A stretch of 64,000 bases of DNA, from positions 1 to 64,000 of the forward strand of contig DATCBN010000103.1 in assembly GCA_036511855.1 (NCBI GenBank). Direction: 5' to 3'. Source of the stretch: Candidatus Eremiobacteraceae bacterium (GTDB lineage Bacteria > Vulcanimicrobiota > Vulcanimicrobiia > Eremiobacterales > Eremiobacteraceae). A program made the position numbers and the translations under genes. This document shows, piece after piece, positions 1,066 through 12,756 of this stretch. Below the pieces are notes generated by a model, which made no database searches, was not told the DNA's origin, and saw only the letters and a list, made by a program, of their open reading frames with translations. Numbering within the stretch: the first letter of the stretch is position 1; each line of letters starts with the position of its first letter.

Positions 1066-1647
1066 TTACCCTGTGCTAACGTTGACACACTGCGCGCGAC
1101 GGCCGTCATCCGGTTCGAGAAGCACGTCGTACCGGAGTTTGCAAGCCTCGGTAACGCGAACGCCCGCGGTCGGAATGTGCGGGCGTAAGATGCCGTTGTG
1201 CATCAGGTGTTGGACGTTGACACCGTACAGAAGGAGCGAAGCATCGGATATCAGTCGACGATGACAGCGCCACCAAAGGGTTTCCGAACAGAGGATCGCA
1301 ACGCGTGTTGCGGCCGCCCGCGACAGCAATCGAGCGAGGGCGCACGAGAAAGTATCTGTTTCCATGTAGTCGGCGTAGGCGCGGAATGACGGATGACGAA
1401 GCGCAACGTTGCTGCTGTCGCGATTGACCCTACGAAAACCACCGAGCGCCGACTCCCAACGATAGGTGCTTCCGCTAAGCTCGGGCATCCAGTGCTCCAT
1501 CGCTTCGCGCCAAAAGTGTGGATGGCGACGACTCTTGGGGACCGAGCGGACGTCGACGATCGATCCGATCGCGGCCTCGCCGATGAGTTGCGCGAGTTCG
1601 CTCGCAGTCGCAGTCCCATGTCCGAGAGTAAGCAGCTCCACGCCCAT
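1066..1647 (-). CDS. DUF488 family protein
   Basis: The 193-residue product matches the DUF488 pattern throughout. It starts with LLTLGHGTATASELAQL, then VDVRSVPKSRRHPHF near residue 33, a GGFRR turn, RAYADYM, and a C-terminal LCSETLWWRCHRRLI segment. The conserved Cys, Glu and Cys-His of that last segment are intact, so the gene looks functional. The biochemical role of the family is not established. It is the first gene inside the module bounded by att copies 1 and 2 and stands alone on its strand, about 330 bp from the next gene. Confidence 0.85.
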   Translation of the reverse strand: MGVELLTLGHGTATASELAQLIGEAAIGSIVDVRSVPKSRRHPHFWREAMEHWMPELSGSTYRWESALGGFRRVNRDSSNVALRHPSFRAYADYMETDTFSCALARLLSRAAATRVAILCSETLWWRCHRRLISDASLLLYGVNVQHLMHNGILRPHIPTAGVRVTEACKLRYDVLLEPDDGRRAQCVNVSTG

Positions 1648-2233: not shown

Positions 2234-2428
2234 TATGTGTAGTCAATCGCCAAAATCGGACCGACATTCGCGTTCGACCGTCGAGATGAACCCATGGGCC
2301 GACGAACGTGCTCGATCCATAGGCGCCGGTCGCTCGGCGCACGTCGTCGAGCCAACCGAGGGATTCTTAGTCGCGTGATCCGCTTTGACGAGGCGCATCG
2401 AGCGGTTCACGAGCCCGACGATCATCGC

Positions 2429-4042
2429 ATGGCTTTCTCGCTACGGCGCCCCTACGTCATCTGGCTCGCCGTCATCATCGCCGTTCCAATTCTACTCGCC
2501 TGGATGCAAGTGCTTGTGTTCGGCATCCACGCCCAACCGGCGCCGGTCTCTATCACGAGCAGCAGCGGACCGCGTGGCTTTCCGATCTGGATTCGCTGGA
2601 CCCACTATGCCAATCTGTTTTTCCTCTTTCTGATAATGCGAAGCGGCCTATCGATCCTCATGGACCATCCGCGACTCTACTGGAACGACGATTGCACGCC
2701 TGGAACGGAGTGGGTGCGCTTCACACCGATCGATGTTCCGAAGGATCGCGTCTGGACCGCGAAGGACGACGCGCGCTATATCTCGCCGCTCATCGCGCTG
2801 CCCGGTTACAAGCACACTCCCGGGATGGGCCGTTCTTGGCATTTCATTACGGACTATGGATTCATAGTCGTCGGTATTATTTATGTCGGAATGCTCTTCA
2901 TCAGCGGGCAGTGGCCGCGCCTGGTCCCGACTTCCTGGGCAATTTTTCCGGCCGCGTGGGACGTCTTTGTACACTATGTGAGCTTTCATTTTCCGGCCGA
3001 GCCAGACGGTTATTACGCGTACAATGCTCTACAGCAACTCGGGTACTTTGTCGTTGTTTTCATTATGGCACCGTTGTCCATCATGACGGGAATCGCGATG
3101 TCGCCGGCTGTCGATAACGCGTTCCCTTGGTATCCGCGAATCTTCGGCGGCCGCCAGGGTGGCCGTTCGATTCACTTCCTAATGCTCGTCGGATATTTTG
3201 CGTTCACGATCGTTCACGTCAGCCTAGTAATCTTGACCGGAGCGCAGCGAAACTTTAACCACATCGTCTTGGGCAATGACAACACGCGGCCGCTGGGACT
3301 GATCCTCGGTTGCATCGGTCTTGCCGTGGTGATCGCGTCTTGGGTCGGCGCATACGTCGTCGCGTGGAGATGTCCGCGTGTGATTCAGCGTTTGCACAAG
3401 ACGCTGATCGGTTCGCTCGAACGGCGCATGAGAGCATCCAGGCGCTTGGATCCGGCGGAGCGCTATACGCGAAAGGACGTATCGCCTTACTTTTGGCCAA
3501 ACGGCAAGATGCCGGAGTCCGATGAATGGAAACGCCTAGCCGCGGACGGTTTCCGCGCCTACCATTTACGTGTCGTCGGCTGCGTCGGAAACCCGGTTGA
3601 GTTGACGCTCGACGACATGCGCGCGCTCGGGCACGACGAGCACGTATCGCTTCATCACTGCATTCAAGGATGGAGCGGAATCGCCCAATGGGGCGACATC
3701 TCGATGCTGCGGCTTATCGATCTTGTGAAGCCGCTGCCGAGCGCGCGCGTCGTCGAGTTCATCTCCTTTGGTGAAGGCACTTTCGGGGGAGTCTATTACG
3801 ATACACAACGTCTTGAGGATGTCGTCAAGCCCGAATGTCTGCTCGCGTATGAGATGAACGGCGTACCTCTTCCGCAAGTGCATGGGGCACCGTTACGCTT
3901 AAGGGTCGAAAATCAACTCGGTTTCAAAATGGTGAAATGGATTAGTGAGATTCGTTTTGTCGAAACGGAGAAAACGCTCGGCGAAGGCTACGGCGGGGCG
4001 AACGAAGATCAAGAATACTTCGACCTCTTGCCCTATATTTAA
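2429..4042 (+). CDS. Fusion of di-haem-type cytochrome b and sulfite-oxidase-fold molybdopterin domain
   Basis: The N-terminal half is a membrane cytochrome b with about six hydrophobic helices and candidate haem His residues (RWTHYANLF, GRSWHFITDYG, GRSIHFLMLVG, FTIVHVSLV), similar to the cytochrome b subunits of thiosulfate reductase and formate dehydrogenase. After a basic linker, the C-terminal part of about 190 residues is an oxidoreductase molybdopterin-binding domain of the sulfite oxidase/MsrP fold. Its HHCIQGWSGIAQWG segment carries the Cys that normally binds Mo. The fused protein could pass electrons between quinol and a Mo centre; the substrate is unknown. The start is uncertain: the frame is open back to 2294, but MAFSLRRP at 2429 precedes the first helix directly. 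It lies upstream of the heme-copper operon. Confidence 0.8.
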   Translation: MAFSLRRPYVIWLAVIIAVPILLAWMQVLVFGIHAQPAPVSITSSSGPRGFPIWIRWTHYANLFFLFLIMRSGLSILMDHPRLYWNDDCTPGTEWVRFTPIDVPKDRVWTAKDDARYISPLIALPGYKHTPGMGRSWHFITDYGFIVVGIIYVGMLFISGQWPRLVPTSWAIFPAAWDVFVHYVSFHFPAEPDGYYAYNALQQLGYFVVVFIMAPLSIMTGIAMSPAVDNAFPWYPRIFGGRQGGRSIHFLMLVGYFAFTIVHVSLVILTGAQRNFNHIVLGNDNTRPLGLILGCIGLAVVIASWVGAYVVAWRCPRVIQRLHKTLIGSLERRMRASRRLDPAERYTRKDVSPYFWPNGKMPESDEWKRLAADGFRAYHLRVVGCVGNPVELTLDDMRALGHDEHVSLHHCIQGWSGIAQWGDISMLRLIDLVKPLPSARVVEFISFGEGTFGGVYYDTQRLEDVVKPECLLAYEMNGVPLPQVHGAPLRLRVENQLGFKMVKWISEIRFVETEKTLGEGYGGANEDQEYFDLLPYI

Positions 4043-4286: not shown

Positions 4287-4805
4287 ATGGAGAAGGGCCC
4301 GATCGTCCTCGTTTGGTTCCTGATCATCGCAGGAACGGCCACGCTCATCATGCTGAGCGTGGCGTTATCGACCCGCATGTCGCCGATGCAGCAATCGGAC
4401 GTGACGCGACAGGGCTACGCGCTGCGGCGAGTGTTGCTGTGGGCACTAAGCATGTCCATCATCGCATCCTTCGCGCTTTCCTTGCCCTCGTTCCCGTACC
4501 CCACGGCATCGCAGAATCGCAGCCTGCGGCATTTTTCGGTCGTCGCCCGACAGTTTTCATTCCAGTTGCCCTCGACGGTCCCGCTTAACACTGACGTGAT
4601 GTTCGACGTGTCATCAACTGACGTCAACCACGGCTTTGGGATCTATGATCCGAACGGTGCGCTTATCGCCCAAGTGCAGGCGATGCCGGATTACACGAAT
4701 CACCTGCCGGTCAGGTTCACGATTGCGGGGCGCTACACGATTCGGTGCCTCGAGTACTGCGGCATCGCCCACCACCTGATGCAAGCTAGCTTCGAGGCAC
4801 GATAG
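4287..4805 (+). CDS. CuA-containing subunit II of a heme-copper oxidoreductase
   Basis: The 172-residue protein has two N-terminal membrane helices and a C-terminal cupredoxin domain. CuA ligands are all visible: His115 in VNHGF, then Cys154, Cys158, His162 and Met165 in CLEYCGIAHHLM. It would accept electrons from a soluble carrier and pass them to the adjacent subunit I. I chose ATG 4287, which follows AAGGCGGGA and leads directly into the first helix, although the frame is open from 4143. The stop codon is immediately followed by the subunit I start, so the two are probably translationally coupled. CuA subunits occur both with oxygen reductases and with some nitric oxide reductases. Confidence 0.88.
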   Translation: MEKGPIVLVWFLIIAGTATLIMLSVALSTRMSPMQQSDVTRQGYALRRVLLWALSMSIIASFALSLPSFPYPTASQNRSLRHFSVVARQFSFQLPSTVPLNTDVMFDVSSTDVNHGFGIYDPNGALIAQVQAMPDYTNHLPVRFTIAGRYTIRCLEYCGIAHHLMQASFEAR

Positions 4806-6266
4806 ATGGACACGTTGGCGCGACCCGACCTCGTGGGACCCCGCCGCGTGATGTGGGCTTTTCTTTCAGCCGGCTTCGCCGTGTTCGCGCTGATGATGGT
4901 CGCGGGAATCGCGATGCGTGCGGCGCAGGCCAATTGGTTCTCGCTCAATCCCGCTACGTTCTACGCCCTGATGACGCTCCACGGTTCGGGCATGATCGTC
5001 GCGATGGCCATGTGCGGCATGGGCGCGCTGTGGTACTTGATGCGGCTCCAGACGAAGCTCAGCGAGGGGGTCGCTTGGACGTCCTTTGCGTTGGTAGTCG
5101 CGGGCGTCGCCGCCGTTGTAATCAGCGTGGTCGCCGGCCGCTTCGGAGCGGCGTGGACGATGCTCTATCCTCTTCCGTTCACCGGCGCCACCTGGCCGTC
5201 GTGGGCCACCGGAACGTTTCTAATCGGGTATGCGCTCTTCACCGTCGGGTGGCTCTTCTGGTGCGTGCAGATGCTCGGCTGCGCACTTCTAGTCTCAGGC
5301 GGGTTCCGCGGTGCGCTCGGGCTAGACTACGTCTTCAGAAATGAGGCGTTCACCGCAGCGGGCGGCAAGCCGCCGACTCCGCAGGGACTCGCCGCGCTCG
5401 TCGCAGGGATCGACGGTATCCTCACCGGCGCCGCCGGCATGCTGATCGGAACCGCGCTGCTCGCGCACTGGATCGATCCGAACGTGAAGCTCGACCCGCT
5501 TTGGGCCAAGAACGTGACATATTTCTTCGGCCACGCGCTCGCGAACCTGACGATTTATCTCGCGGTTGTCGCGGTGTACGTCGGTCTGCCGCGCTACTCG
5601 GGCCGAGAATATCACACGTCGGTGCCGCTAGTCGTCGCTTGGTGGGGGACGCTGCTGTTCGTCGCGATCGCCTACTTCCACCACTTGTATATGGACTTCG
5701 TCCAGATGCAGGCGCTGCAATACATCGGCGAAGCGGTGTCCTATTTGGCGGCGCTGCCGGTCGCGGTCGTGACGGTGTTCGGCGGCATGGTGCTCGTTTA
5801 TCGGGCGAGGATGCGGTGGACGATGGCCTCAATGTTCATCTTTGCCGGACTGATCGGCTGGGTCGTCGGCGGCATTGGCGCACTGCTCGATGCGACCGTG
5901 CCGTTCAACGTCGACCTCCACAACACGCTGTGGGTGCCCGCGCACTTCCACACGTACCTGCTGGAAGGCGTGCTGTTGTTCATCATCGGTTGGGCGTTCA
6001 TATTCGTGGAAGAAGGTGCGCGTGCGGTGACGCCTGCGATCGTCCGCTGGCTGACAGGCATCGGAGTGTTCGGCGGAGGCGCGGTGTTCTTGATCGGCTT
6101 TTACGTGGCGGGCGCGGCGGGCGTACCAAGGCGATATGCAGTCGAACCTGCGCCGGGCCCAGACATCGCTTCGTGGTCGACCATCGGTGCGATTCTCGTC
6201 GCCGCCGGCCTGTTGGTCGCGCTTGTCGAAGCGGTGCGGCTCGCGCGCGCGCCGCGAACGGCATGA
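4806..6266 (+). CDS. Heme-copper oxidoreductase subunit I, B-family-like, lacking the usual active-site Tyr
   Basis: The 486-residue protein has about 12 membrane helices and the metal ligands of the superfamily: His59 (TLHGSGM) for low-spin haem, His243 (FFGHALAN), His292 and His293 (YFHHLY) for CuB, and His380 and His382 (PAHFHTY) for the two haems. In oxygen reductases of types A and B, a Tyr four residues after the first CuB His is cross-linked to it (the HPxVY motif). Here that place is Asn247. This suggests nitric oxide reductase or another non-oxygen activity. It overlaps the next gene by four bases and follows subunit II directly. Confidence 0.88.
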   Translation: MDTLARPDLVGPRRVMWAFLSAGFAVFALMMVAGIAMRAAQANWFSLNPATFYALMTLHGSGMIVAMAMCGMGALWYLMRLQTKLSEGVAWTSFALVVAGVAAVVISVVAGRFGAAWTMLYPLPFTGATWPSWATGTFLIGYALFTVGWLFWCVQMLGCALLVSGGFRGALGLDYVFRNEAFTAAGGKPPTPQGLAALVAGIDGILTGAAGMLIGTALLAHWIDPNVKLDPLWAKNVTYFFGHALANLTIYLAVVAVYVGLPRYSGREYHTSVPLVVAWWGTLLFVAIAYFHHLYMDFVQMQALQYIGEAVSYLAALPVAVVTVFGGMVLVYRARMRWTMASMFIFAGLIGWVVGGIGALLDATVPFNVDLHNTLWVPAHFHTYLLEGVLLFIIGWAFIFVEEGARAVTPAIVRWLTGIGVFGGGAVFLIGFYVAGAAGVPRRYAVEPAPGPDIASWSTIGAILVAAGLLVALVEAVRLARAPRTA

Positions 6267-6733
6267 CCGGTTATTCGCAATCTGGCCGGATCGCCGGGTA
6301 TGCGCTGCTCGCAGTAGCCCTTGGGAGTGCGCTTGTGCCGCTTTTGCCATTTGCGGAAGCGCTGCCCGTCTGGAAGCACCACCTCGTCCATGCGTTGATC
6401 CTGGCGCTCGCCTCGACATCGGGCATTCTGCTTGCGCACATCGGATCACGAACCGCCGCCGAACAAAGCGAGGCCGGGCCCGGATTCTGGGTGGTGCTCT
6501 GTGTGCTCGCGCCGGCGGTGTCGATGTTCTTGATGTGGCCGACCACCTACGATTGGGTCGAACATTATCCGTTGGCGCATGGTGCGGAACATTTCTGCTT
6601 TGTCGGACTCGGATTTCTCGCCGGGTTCGGCGGCGAGCGTTACGTGCGGGGCGTCGGCTGGGTTAGCGCTGCAGCGACCGTGCTGACGGCGATCGCGGCA
6701 GCCGCAGGCTTCGGGGTCATGGCCGAAAGATGA
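6263..6733 (+). CDS. Small His-containing membrane protein of the heme-copper operon
   Basis: The start codon overlaps the subunit I stop (ATGA), so it belongs to the same transcript. The 156 residues form about four or five hydrophobic helices, with His residues in WKHHLVH, LLAHIG, VEHYPLAHGAEHF. These positions suggest haem or copper contact, and the protein may be an accessory or assembly subunit. I do not recognise a named family with certainty; it vaguely recalls DUF1404-type proteins. A much longer frame runs through this region from 5501, but its upstream part is Arg-rich and lies over subunit I in another frame. Confidence 0.65.
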   Translation: MTGYSQSGRIAGYALLAVALGSALVPLLPFAEALPVWKHHLVHALILALASTSGILLAHIGSRTAAEQSEAGPGFWVVLCVLAPAVSMFLMWPTTYDWVEHYPLAHGAEHFCFVGLGFLAGFGGERYVRGVGWVSAAATVLTAIAAAAGFGVMAER

Positions 6734-6763
6734 TGCTCAGCTTTCGCAAGACTGGTTGACGAT

Positions 6764-7219
6764 ATGCCCTTCGAATCTCGCCTATTCGTGAAAACTGGAA
6801 TCGTCTATCTTGTGCTCGCGTTTGCCGCCGGCGCAGCGCTCATGATCGCGTCGGCGGCCGGAAAGCCGGCGCCGTTTGTATTTGAAGTCGAGCACGGGCA
6901 TCTCGGGTTTGTCGGTTGGTTGGTCAACATCGTCATCGGCGTGGCTCTCTGGATGTTTCCGCTCGATCGAGAGCGCTATCCGGCGACGGAGGGCCGGTAT
7001 CCGGTTGCTGCACCGCTATGGTCCTACTACCTCTTAAACGTCGGTTTGGCCGTGCGCATCGTCGTCGAGCCCTGGTTCCAGCTCAGCGGCGCGAGTGTTT
7101 TGGGATCGACGCTGCTCGTCGCATCCGCTTTGATGCAGCTCGCTGCGATTCTCGTTTTTGTTGGCATCATTTGGAGCCGCACGAGAGGGCCACGCCGGCC
7201 AGCGCCTGGGGTGCGTTGA
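6764..7219 (+). CDS. Four-helix membrane protein of the heme-copper operon
   Basis: The 151-residue protein has four predicted helices. The key segment is FEVEHGHLGFVGWLVN, in which two His residues precede a Gly-Trp helix; this resembles the first helices of NorB/CcoN-like and NnrS-like proteins. It lies 30 bp downstream of the previous gene and 17 bp upstream of the next on the same strand. A part in haem binding or in sensing of NO or oxygen is inference only. Confidence 0.6.
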   Translation: MPFESRLFVKTGIVYLVLAFAAGAALMIASAAGKPAPFVFEVEHGHLGFVGWLVNIVIGVALWMFPLDRERYPATEGRYPVAAPLWSYYLLNVGLAVRIVVEPWFQLSGASVLGSTLLVASALMQLAAILVFVGIIWSRTRGPRRPAPGVR

Positions 7220-7236
7220 CGGCGGCTTCCCATCGA

Positions 7237-8463
7237 ATGAAGCGCGAGCCTCCGTGGATCCCTCCTTCGGGTCTTATCGCCGCGCATCTCGCGCACGGAG
7301 CTTCGTGGATTCTATTGGGGTTGCTCGCACGCCAAGGCATCGTCGGCCCGTCGATGCGCGCGTTCGCGTGGGTTCACCTCGTAGCGCTCGGGTGGCTGAC
7401 GCTGACCGCGCTGGCCGTGCTGCTGTTCGTCGTGCCGCAGTTCACCGATGCCGAGTGGCGAGGCGAATTATCGGCGCGCTTGGGGATCGTCGTATTCGCG
7501 TTTGGCGCGTTCGCGATGGTCGTCGCGTTCTGGACGGGTGGCGATTCGTGGCTATGGGGCGCGGCATCTGGCGTCGTCAGTGGGCTGACGCTTTATGGGG
7601 TGCCGGCGGTAATGACGTTGCGCAGTGCGATGCGTACCCGTGGAACCGAAGCCGCGATTGCTCGAGCATTCCTCATCGTGTTCGCGTTCCTCGGCGCTGC
7701 AGCGCTGATCGGCCTGGGCATGGCTGGCGAATTCGCGTCCGGCAAATTCTCTATGCTCGCGTGGGCGCCGTCGGTTCACGCGAATCTTGCGATGATCGGG
7801 TGGCTGACGCTGCTGGTCATGGGAGTTTCGGCGAGGACGATTGGGCCAATCTCGGGTAGACGATCTCCGCAACGATGGGTGCACATCGTCTCCTCAAGTC
7901 TTGTGACCGCGGGAACGCTCGCACTCGTGCTTGTGCCGTGGACGGCAGCGGCGCTGTGGCCAGGCTGCATCCTTTGTGCGACGGGGACCACCGTTTACGC
8001 AGTCGATATGCTGGCGCTCTTGGCCCGTTCGAACGTGCAGCATCGTCCGCCGCAGGCGTTCATGGCGGCTTCGATGCTCTGGCTCGTCGTTACGGTCGCG
8101 CTCGGCATCCTCAGCGTCGCCGGCCACACGATGCTCGCACCGGCGTACGTCTTTGTCGGACTCGTGGGTTGGGTGGCCCAGATTGTCCTCGCGCATTTGC
8201 ATCATATTGGCGTTCGCCTCATCGCGACGATGGCGCGTGGCGATGATGATGAGACGCCGCCCCAGGCTCTCCTCACTCCCAACTTGAGCTGGATGGCGTT
8301 CGTGCTGTTCCAGATGGCGGTGGCAACGGGTATTGCGGCATTGATCTCTCACGGTTCGACGCTCCTCACGGGAGCGTCCGTAGCGGGCTTCGCCGGCTGG
8401 GTCGCAATGACGGCGAACGTCGCTCGCGCCTTAAGTAAAGCTCGGGCAAATCTGGATGCGTGA
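7237..8463 (+). CDS. Polytopic membrane protein, NnrS-like or cbb3-I-like
   Basis: The 408-residue protein has about ten to twelve helices. His residues recur at helix starts: AAHLAHGASW, FAWVHLVALGWLTL, SVHANLAMIGWLTLL, SVAGHTML, LAHLHHIGVRL. The pattern of His followed by LGWLTL resembles NnrS and other haem-containing membrane proteins linked to NO metabolism, but I cannot assign the family firmly. I chose ATG 7237 because the frame upstream of it overlaps the preceding gene. It is the last gene of the operon; a perfect hairpin lies 72 bp downstream. Confidence 0.65.
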   Translation: MKREPPWIPPSGLIAAHLAHGASWILLGLLARQGIVGPSMRAFAWVHLVALGWLTLTALAVLLFVVPQFTDAEWRGELSARLGIVVFAFGAFAMVVAFWTGGDSWLWGAASGVVSGLTLYGVPAVMTLRSAMRTRGTEAAIARAFLIVFAFLGAAALIGLGMAGEFASGKFSMLAWAPSVHANLAMIGWLTLLVMGVSARTIGPISGRRSPQRWVHIVSSSLVTAGTLALVLVPWTAAALWPGCILCATGTTVYAVDMLALLARSNVQHRPPQAFMAASMLWLVVTVALGILSVAGHTMLAPAYVFVGLVGWVAQIVLAHLHHIGVRLIATMARGDDDETPPQALLTPNLSWMAFVLFQMAVATGIAALISHGSTLLTGASVAGFAGWVAMTANVARALSKARANLDA

Positions 8464-11451: not shown

Positions 11452-12756
11452 TCAGACTGCGGACGCATGGCGCCCGTGCAACGAAGATAAATATGCATCG
11501 AAACAGGACGCCACGTTTCGCGCGAACAGTCTTCCAACCGGCGTCAAGATTATCTCATCATCTTGAAACCTCACGATGCCATCAGTCTCGAATGGCGTGA
11601 GCGCCGCACTTTCCACGAGCAATGGAATGGCTTCCGACACCGACACGCGACCGCGCGTCATTATGCTTTCGATGATTGCCCGCCTCGCGATATCGTCGGG
11701 CGCAAGGACGCAGCCGCGTGAGGCCACCGAGTCGTCCGCAACGTTTTCAATGTAGCGCCTCACGTCCGGCTGGTTCTGTGCAAATGCATCTTGCGACGCC
11801 GAAATGGCGCTGGAGCCGACGCCGACAAGCGCCTCGGTTCGGCCCGGTGTGTATCCCATAAACGTGCGGTTGACGTCGTTTCGCAGGTCGGCCTCCGCAA
11901 GCGCATCACCGGCAGCCGCGAAGTGGTCGATGCCGATATGTCGATACCCGGCGGCAACAAACGTTTTCACGCTGTCCATTATCATGCCGAACTTTTCTAG
12001 TCGATTCGGTAGCGCGTTCTCGTAAGCGCGTTGCGCGCGATTGACCCAAGGCACGTGCGCGTACGCGTACGCCGCTAGCCGATTCGGCTTCATGGTCAGC
12101 ACCTGCGCGATCGTTAGCGCGAACGACGCTCGCGTTTGCATTGGCAAACCGTAGATGAGGTCGATGTTGACGCCAGCTATTTCGAATTCGCGCGCCCATT
12201 GCACGGCCATCTGCGTCTGCTCTAGCGTTTGAAGCCGATTGATAGCGCGCTGCGTTGCTTCTTGGATATCTTGCACGCCGAAGCTTATGCGGTTGAAGCC
12301 CATGGCAGCGATCAGCGCTATTTGACCGCGAGAGGCCAATCGTGGGTCTACTTCGATCGATATCTCGGCGTCATCGGCCAATGAAAAACGTGTCGCAACC
12401 ATGCGGAAAAGCCGAGCGATCTGAGCAGCCGAAAGACTGTTCGGTGTTCCACCGCCCCAATGCAGCCAGCGTATCGCAACTTTGCCGATACGCATGGCTA
12501 TACTGTTAAGTTCGCATTCAACCGCGTCGAGGTAGCGGTCGACTAGGGCTGTATCCTTGGTGATCAAACGATTGCATGCGCAATACCGACATAGCGATGG
12601 ACAGAAAGGCACATGAACGTAAAGCGCTATTGCACGTGTGGATGAGCTTGGCACGATCGCCGCGACGATTCGATCGCGCGCTTGCGTCGGATCGTGATGC
12701 CATGCTGGAACCGTCGGATAGCTTGTGTAGCGCGGAAGCGGGCGGTCGTAGCGCAC
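11452..12756 (-). CDS. hemN: Oxygen-independent coproporphyrinogen III oxidase (radical SAM)
   Basis: The 434-residue protein has the HemN hallmarks: PRYTSYPT near the N-terminus, the radical-SAM cluster Cys52-x3-Cys56-x2-Cys59-x-Cys61 (CPSLCRYCAC), HWGGGTPN, SFGVQD and a C-terminal FMGYT region. It decarboxylates coproporphyrinogen III to protoporphyrinogen IX without oxygen in the cytosol. Its place in the same module as an anaerobic aromatic pathway fits an anoxic programme. No other haem genes are adjacent. The alternative HemW, the haem chaperone, is less likely because the HemN-specific N-terminal motif is present. Confidence 0.88.
   Translation of the reverse strand: MRYDRPLPRYTSYPTVPAWHHDPTQARDRIVAAIVPSSSTRAIALYVHVPFCPSLCRYCACNRLITKDTALVDRYLDAVECELNSIAMRIGKVAIRWLHWGGGTPNSLSAAQIARLFRMVATRFSLADDAEISIEVDPRLASRGQIALIAAMGFNRISFGVQDIQEATQRAINRLQTLEQTQMAVQWAREFEIAGVNIDLIYGLPMQTRASFALTIAQVLTMKPNRLAAYAYAHVPWVNRAQRAYENALPNRLEKFGMIMDSVKTFVAAGYRHIGIDHFAAAGDALAEADLRNDVNRTFMGYTPGRTEALVGVGSSAISASQDAFAQNQPDVRRYIENVADDSVASRGCVLAPDDIARRAIIESIMTRGRVSVSEAIPLLVESAALTPFETDGIVRFQDDEIILTPVGRLFARNVASCFDAYLSSLHGRHASAV

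Follow-up and report, generated by a model that had tools for sequence, protein, structure and literature searches.

The 64,000-nucleotide stretch of contig DATCBN010000103.1 from Candidatus Eremiobacteraceae bacterium (GCA_036511855.1; hereafter the window) encodes a heme-copper enzyme in which an asparagine occupies the position of the tyrosine that is cross-linked to a histidine in oxygen reductases of the A and B families. The enzyme is probably a CuA-containing nitric oxide (NO) reductase (NOR) of the sNOR group. A sequence-only reading of the window had put it forward as a candidate CuA-type NOR; this is the best supported explanation of the data, and phylogenetic trees, the asparagine, and the CuA site sharpen it to a predicted sNOR-type enzyme. 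Because sNOR already exists as a named family, the finding is less open than that reading had presented it. Judged from its sequence, the protein is of the sNOR type; it belongs to a separate branch and is a distinct variant of a biochemically unproven family, not a new class.

Metal sites and the missing tyrosine

Five open reading frames on the + strand form an operon-like run, and a check of the reading frames returned the same coordinates as the list used in the sequence-only reading. The run begins with subunit II (4287–4805, + strand; Pfam COX2, E = 4e-6), which has two hydrophobic segments at its N-terminus, corresponding to two membrane helices, and a cupredoxin domain. The CuA site of this domain is complete, as had been read from the sequence: the ligands His115, Cys154, Glu156, Cys158, His162, and Met165 are all present and do not vary among 13 aligned subunits II. 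The catalytic heme-copper subunit I (4806–6266, + strand; Pfam COX1, E = 4.9e-45), encoded directly beside subunit II, is 486 residues long and has 12 helices. The earlier claim that it retains all histidine ligands holds, since the pair binding the low-spin heme (His59 and His382), the proximal His380, and the CuB ligands His243, His292, and His293 are unchanged in the window and in 27 relatives. These 28 sequences make up the residue table used below, in which loci L107 and L108 repeat rows already counted.

The residue four positions after His243 is Asn247 (codons from His243 to Asn247, 5532–5546; Asn247 codon, 5544–5546; both + strand). It is asparagine in all 28 reductase-bearing genomes of the same class and also in the sNOR-type proteins of Ruegeria, Thermomicrobium, G008, and G140. 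In the alignment, the equivalent slot contains tyrosine in all A- and B-family rows, glutamine in eNOR, glutamate in cNOR and qNOR, and glycine in the C family. C-family enzymes have their tyrosine at slot 286, six residues before the His-His pair, whereas the window protein has Val286 there (Val286 to His292-His293, 5661–5684, + strand). Subunit I therefore has tyrosine at neither the A- and B-family nor the C-family cross-link position. The sequence-only reading had kept Tyr290 in play as a possible C-family-like tyrosine, but this residue is located at position −2 of the His-His pair, not −6. Tyr290 is present in Ruegeria, Thermomicrobium, and G008 and replaced by threonine in G140, so that, on sequence grounds, its position and this replacement rule out such a role. 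The strict conservation in 28 genomes likewise rules out a pseudogene or a chance substitution: His59, His243, Asn247, Val286, Tyr290, His292, His293, Glu309, Ser312, His372, His380, and His382 show no change.

The Eremiobacterota-class proteins share Asn247, Tyr251, Ser312, Tyr313, and Tyr384 with the other sNORs. Glu309 (codon 5730–5732, + strand) is invariant in the Eremiobacterota clade and replaced by glutamine in other sNORs, and neither residue is found at this position in other heme-copper classes. It precedes the conserved Ser312 by three residues within one helix, and we speculate that it has a role in proton delivery. Of the slots that form the K-channel in the B family, the alignment alone indicates that Tyr258 and Thr323 are kept, whereas Tyr254 and Ser319 are lost. 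Slot 254, which is tyrosine in all B-family rows, is mostly occupied by valine, isoleucine, or leucine in the window clade; this loss agrees with the entry "no proton channel" given for sNOR (PMC8756737). An AlphaFold model recovers the heme-copper fold and matches ba3 and aa3 oxidases with template modeling (TM) scores of 0.70–0.75, the best match and closest solved fold being that of the ba3 oxidase 1ehk (TM 0.70). The model was calculated from three sequences (predicted TM score 0.60), and a predicted local distance difference test of ~50 around the active site makes it too poor for distances.

Relationship to known heme-copper enzymes

A survey of 149 genomes from the phylum located the reductase gene in 28 genomes of the same class, that of the window included, at 58–65% identity. 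More distant homologs, with 37–38% identity, are encoded in G008 and G140. The nearest named relative is the metagenome-assembled genome palsa_1485 of Candidatus Eremiobacterota, the subunit I of which is 60–62% identical. Among wider named references, a scan of genome contigs gave two loci and scans of viral contigs gave none.

The sequence-only reading had called for a tree of subunit I. Maximum-likelihood trees were built from two different reference sets with rows of A, B, and C oxidases, eNOR, cNOR, qNOR, and sNOR, and both group the window protein and its relatives with the Ruegeria pomeroyi and Thermomicrobium roseum proteins with 100/100 support. In both trees the clade is separate from all the other rows, including the oxygen reductases, and has a long stem of 1.4–1.5 changes per site. 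Within it, the Eremiobacterota-class proteins form their own branch, with support of 99/99 and 100/99, and this branch is sister to all other members. A search with phmmer listed A-family matches first, but the A-family identity that this suggested was misleading, and the trees resolved the placement. The NOR classes are reportedly defined by Murali et al. 2024 (PNAS). The trees contain two named sNOR references: Ruegeria pomeroyi, which we take to be the former Silicibacter, is included through its genus in the literature, and Thermomicrobium was assigned by us from its residue and clade. Table A4 of PMC8756737 gives asparagine as the sNOR residue and names Silicibacter among the genera with sNOR, and asparagine at the tyrosine position is also published for CuANOR/bNOR (PMC3475470).

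Among the known systems, the window enzyme most resembles sNOR (NorSY of Ruegeria pomeroyi, Nitrosomonas, and relatives), which has the same asparagine, a CuA-bearing subunit II encoded directly upstream, mostly a tyrosine at position −2 of the His-His pair, and the Ser312, Tyr313, and Tyr384 signature. The differences are that the window protein is 37–40% identical to the sNOR references, and that it has glutamate in place of their glutamine at position 309. The bNOR (CuANOR) of Bacillus azotoformans likewise has asparagine in place of the tyrosine and CuA in subunit II, but by its description it is closer to ba3 oxidase, is accompanied by a SCO gene, and has 13 helices (PMC3475470). The eNORs of Defluviimonas and Thermus plasmids, also present in G140, combine a CuA subunit II with an amide residue at the tyrosine slot, yet this residue is glutamine, slot 323 is histidine, and they form a separate clade with the B family. 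The cNOR and qNOR enzymes presumably share their reaction with the window enzyme, but they have a glutamate at the slot and an FeB-type helix with Gly-His-His, and they belong to a distant clade. The window enzyme has neither this glutamate nor the heme c or fused quinol-type partner of cNOR and qNOR.

Proposed nitric oxide reduction and alternative functions

In both G088 and G107, a gene for an Rrf2 regulator adjoins the operon, and the Ruegeria sNOR also has one next to it. DUF2249-Crp/Fnr genes or gene fragments are located near the reductase in seven other loci. The Rrf2 family includes the NO sensor NsrR, and NO regulators are found among Crp/Fnr proteins. This regulator neighborhood supports a link to NO but does not prove it. 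As a separate observation, several genomes encode, beside the reductase, a fusion of DUF2249 to a Crp/Fnr-type regulator (e.g., L061:6477-7406 and L064:2354-3271), and a haloarchaeal qNOR-type gene (L049) likewise has DUF2249 genes next to it; these proteins may constitute a family of NO-responsive regulators.

NosZ was found in only four genomes of the same class, and all four carry the reductase gene (hypergeometric p = 0.003; three of the four belong to one genus). In G054, which has NosZ and A- and B-family oxidases, the window-type enzyme is the only NOR-type heme-copper protein; the search did not extend to NORs outside the heme-copper family, such as flavorubredoxin. The source genome of the window (G000; 3.07 Mb, 96% complete, the window being contig C103) also encodes an A-family aa3 oxidase (L001) and a B-family ba3-type oxidase (L002), both with the tyrosine. 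Because it keeps these ordinary oxidases for oxygen, the reading of the window enzyme as an NO reductase is strengthened. G000 contains no NirK above the cut-off, with partial matches only to other multicopper proteins, no NirS, and no NosZ. Full denitrification is therefore less likely in this organism than the detoxification or respiration of NO that comes from outside. Among the relatives, G028 and G029 possess a cNOR-type subunit as well, and an unchecked match in G030 may be another; G028–G030 in addition have an odd C-family-like subunit, with tyrosine six residues before His-His and an FMHNAVG motif, and two complete copies of the window-type enzyme (loci L104, L111, L097, L098, and L102).

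We infer NO as the substrate of the Eremiobacterota enzyme, together with its electron donor, heme type, and use in NO detoxification or respiration, and a reaction path can be proposed. A c-type cytochrome, which in several relatives may be the one on the third protein of the operon itself, would donate electrons to the CuA site of subunit II. From there the electrons would pass to the low-spin heme between His59 and His382 and on to the binuclear center, composed of a heme on His380 and CuB on His243, His292, and His293. At this center, two NO molecules would be joined and reduced to nitrous oxide (N2O) and water. Since the cross-linked tyrosine is replaced by Asn247, the center would be without an internal source of the additional electron and proton that O–O bond cleavage requires, whereas the two-electron reaction of NO would still be possible.

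Several points weigh against the assignment to NO-reducing sNORs. To our knowledge, an assay of a purified sNOR has yet to be reported. Most carriers of the reductase, including G000, are without NirK, NirS, and NosZ. No Rrf2 or Crp gene is located beside the operon in G000, and the Rrf2 proteins of G088 and G107 score below the NsrR cut-off. Neither tree contains bNOR rows, so the placement does not cover kinship with bNOR. Finally, PMC6967387 notes that the evidence for NO reduction by sNOR is only indirect, and argues from transcription that the sNOR of N. europaea, induced under oxygen limitation, may be a high-affinity oxygen reductase.

If the Eremiobacterota enzyme had this last function, it would reduce oxygen without the His-Tyr cross-link, and the extra electron would come from Tyr251, Tyr290, Tyr313, or the medium. 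All three tyrosines are indeed kept throughout the clade and almost throughout the sNORs, whereas A- and B-family oxidases do not conserve them, and the absence of other denitrification genes from most carriers fits an oxygen reductase as well. This is the main rival explanation, but the data make it less likely, and we consider it unlikely: every compared class of oxygen reductases has a tyrosine at slot 247 or 286 and the clade has neither, oxygen reductases of the A and B families are already encoded in the genome, and the regulator neighborhoods and the association with NosZ point to nitrogen oxides. It is less probable still that the enzyme is a member of the bNORs and hence closely related to the B family. 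The asparagine, the CuA site, and the best fold match of the model to a ba3 oxidase would agree with this, but the clade is separate from the B-family and eNOR rows and is fixed by the sNORs of Ruegeria and Thermomicrobium, and it has lost the B-family K-channel tyrosine at slot 254. Furthermore, the 12 helices and the two-helix subunit II correspond to type II of Heylen and Keltjens rather than to the purified type I (PMC3475470). A protein that is linked to NO but is non-catalytic or acts differently, for example in NO sensing or on another small substrate, would accord with partner proteins of unassigned function and with a genome in which no NO source was found. It is nevertheless the least probable of the alternatives, as the strict retention of the metal ligands, the CuA site, and the polar residues of the clade at 58–65% identity speaks for catalysis. 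Thus, a CuA-containing NO reductase of the sNOR group remains the preferred explanation.

Eremiobacterota inhabit acidic, desert, and permafrost soils, where N2O release matters, and about a quarter of the class searched (28 of ~117 genomes) is affected by the assignment. KEGG labels bNOR and sNOR genes "cytochrome c oxidase subunit I" (PMC11388526). Because standard annotation calls such proteins oxidases, a possible step from NO to N2O would be read as oxygen respiration. A natural tyrosine-less CuA enzyme alongside A- and B-family oxidases is a good system for studying the role of the cross-linked tyrosine, and in G054, with NosZ and no other heme-copper NOR, the debated role of sNOR could be tested directly.

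Partner genes and genomic neighborhood

Three histidine-bearing membrane proteins were expected downstream of subunit I, all of them small and one NnrS-like. The three reading frames are present, but the last, o5, is not small and shows no relationship to NnrS by sequence. The first, o3 (6263–6733, + strand), has a start that overlaps the stop codon of subunit I and follows subunit I directly in all 18 same-class loci examined. It is a histidine-rich protein of four helices with invariant HHxxH and HxxxH motifs, and may be a third subunit or an assembly factor. Several relatives encode a version with a cytochrome c domain (Cytochrom_C) added at the C-terminus. In an hhalign comparison, o3 weakly resembles CtaG, a factor for copper assembly (probability 15%). 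Ruegeria, G008, and G140 have a SCO gene next to their sNOR genes, whereas the same-class operons have o3, with or without cytochrome c. The window operon contains no SCO gene, and among the same-class loci a single one has SCO nearby. The Thermomicrobium sNOR is also without a SCO gene, which makes SCO a usual rather than a defining companion. It is reasonable to infer that o3 replaces SCO in copper delivery and, when fused, delivers electrons.

The small membrane protein o4 (6764–7219, + strand) has no Pfam or NCBIfam match, and its gene adjoins that of o5 in L056, L057, and L060. The protein o5 (7237–8463, + strand) has 408 residues, ~11 helices, and conserved histidines. It is found in 27 of the 28 reductase-bearing genomes of the class and in 22 of the 89 others (p = 4e-12 by Fisher's test, without correction for kinship). 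Since o5 is often not adjacent to the reductase, the link between them goes beyond a common operon. The identification of o5 as NnrS-like is not supported, as it has no match to Pfam NnrS (PF05940) and an hhalign probability of 0.3% to a true NnrS. Copper proteins that resemble NirK, but score below its cut-off, are encoded beside or near o5 homologs (G088:C22:250319-251110 and G017:C19:47286-48086), a second hint that o5 takes part in nitrogen-oxide chemistry.

Directly upstream of the operon is a gene for a cytochrome b561 fused to a sulfite-oxidase-type molybdopterin domain (2294–4042, + strand; Pfam), a possible partner of the reductase. Its homolog is located directly downstream of o3 beside the reductase operon in G058 and near o5 in G017, G027, and G036, of which G017 and G027 have no reductase. 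The protein is 76–82% identical across distant families of the class, compared with ~62% for the reductase, and this higher identity suggests recent transfer. A fuller scheme, in which the enzyme is an NO reductase with SCO replaced by a histidine-rich, cytochrome-c-bearing subunit, with a proton route through Glu309, and with the b561-molybdopterin protein making NO from nitrite, appears improbable as a whole. If true, it would constitute a NirK-free nitrite-to-N2O module of new architecture.

A tRNA remnant suspected near 8.7 kb of the window was not found. HemN, the oxygen-independent coproporphyrinogen III oxidase, is encoded 3 kb downstream of the operon (11452–12756), and heme supply at low oxygen is plausible. 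A DUF488 gene of the window (1066–1647) has homologs a few kilobases from the reductase in G107 (L060:2490-3065) and G056 (L061:10163-10717). Elsewhere in the source genome, G000:C4:32131-33402 encodes a molybdopterin oxidoreductase whose gene contains a single TGA in frame; it may be a selenocysteine-containing formate dehydrogenase.

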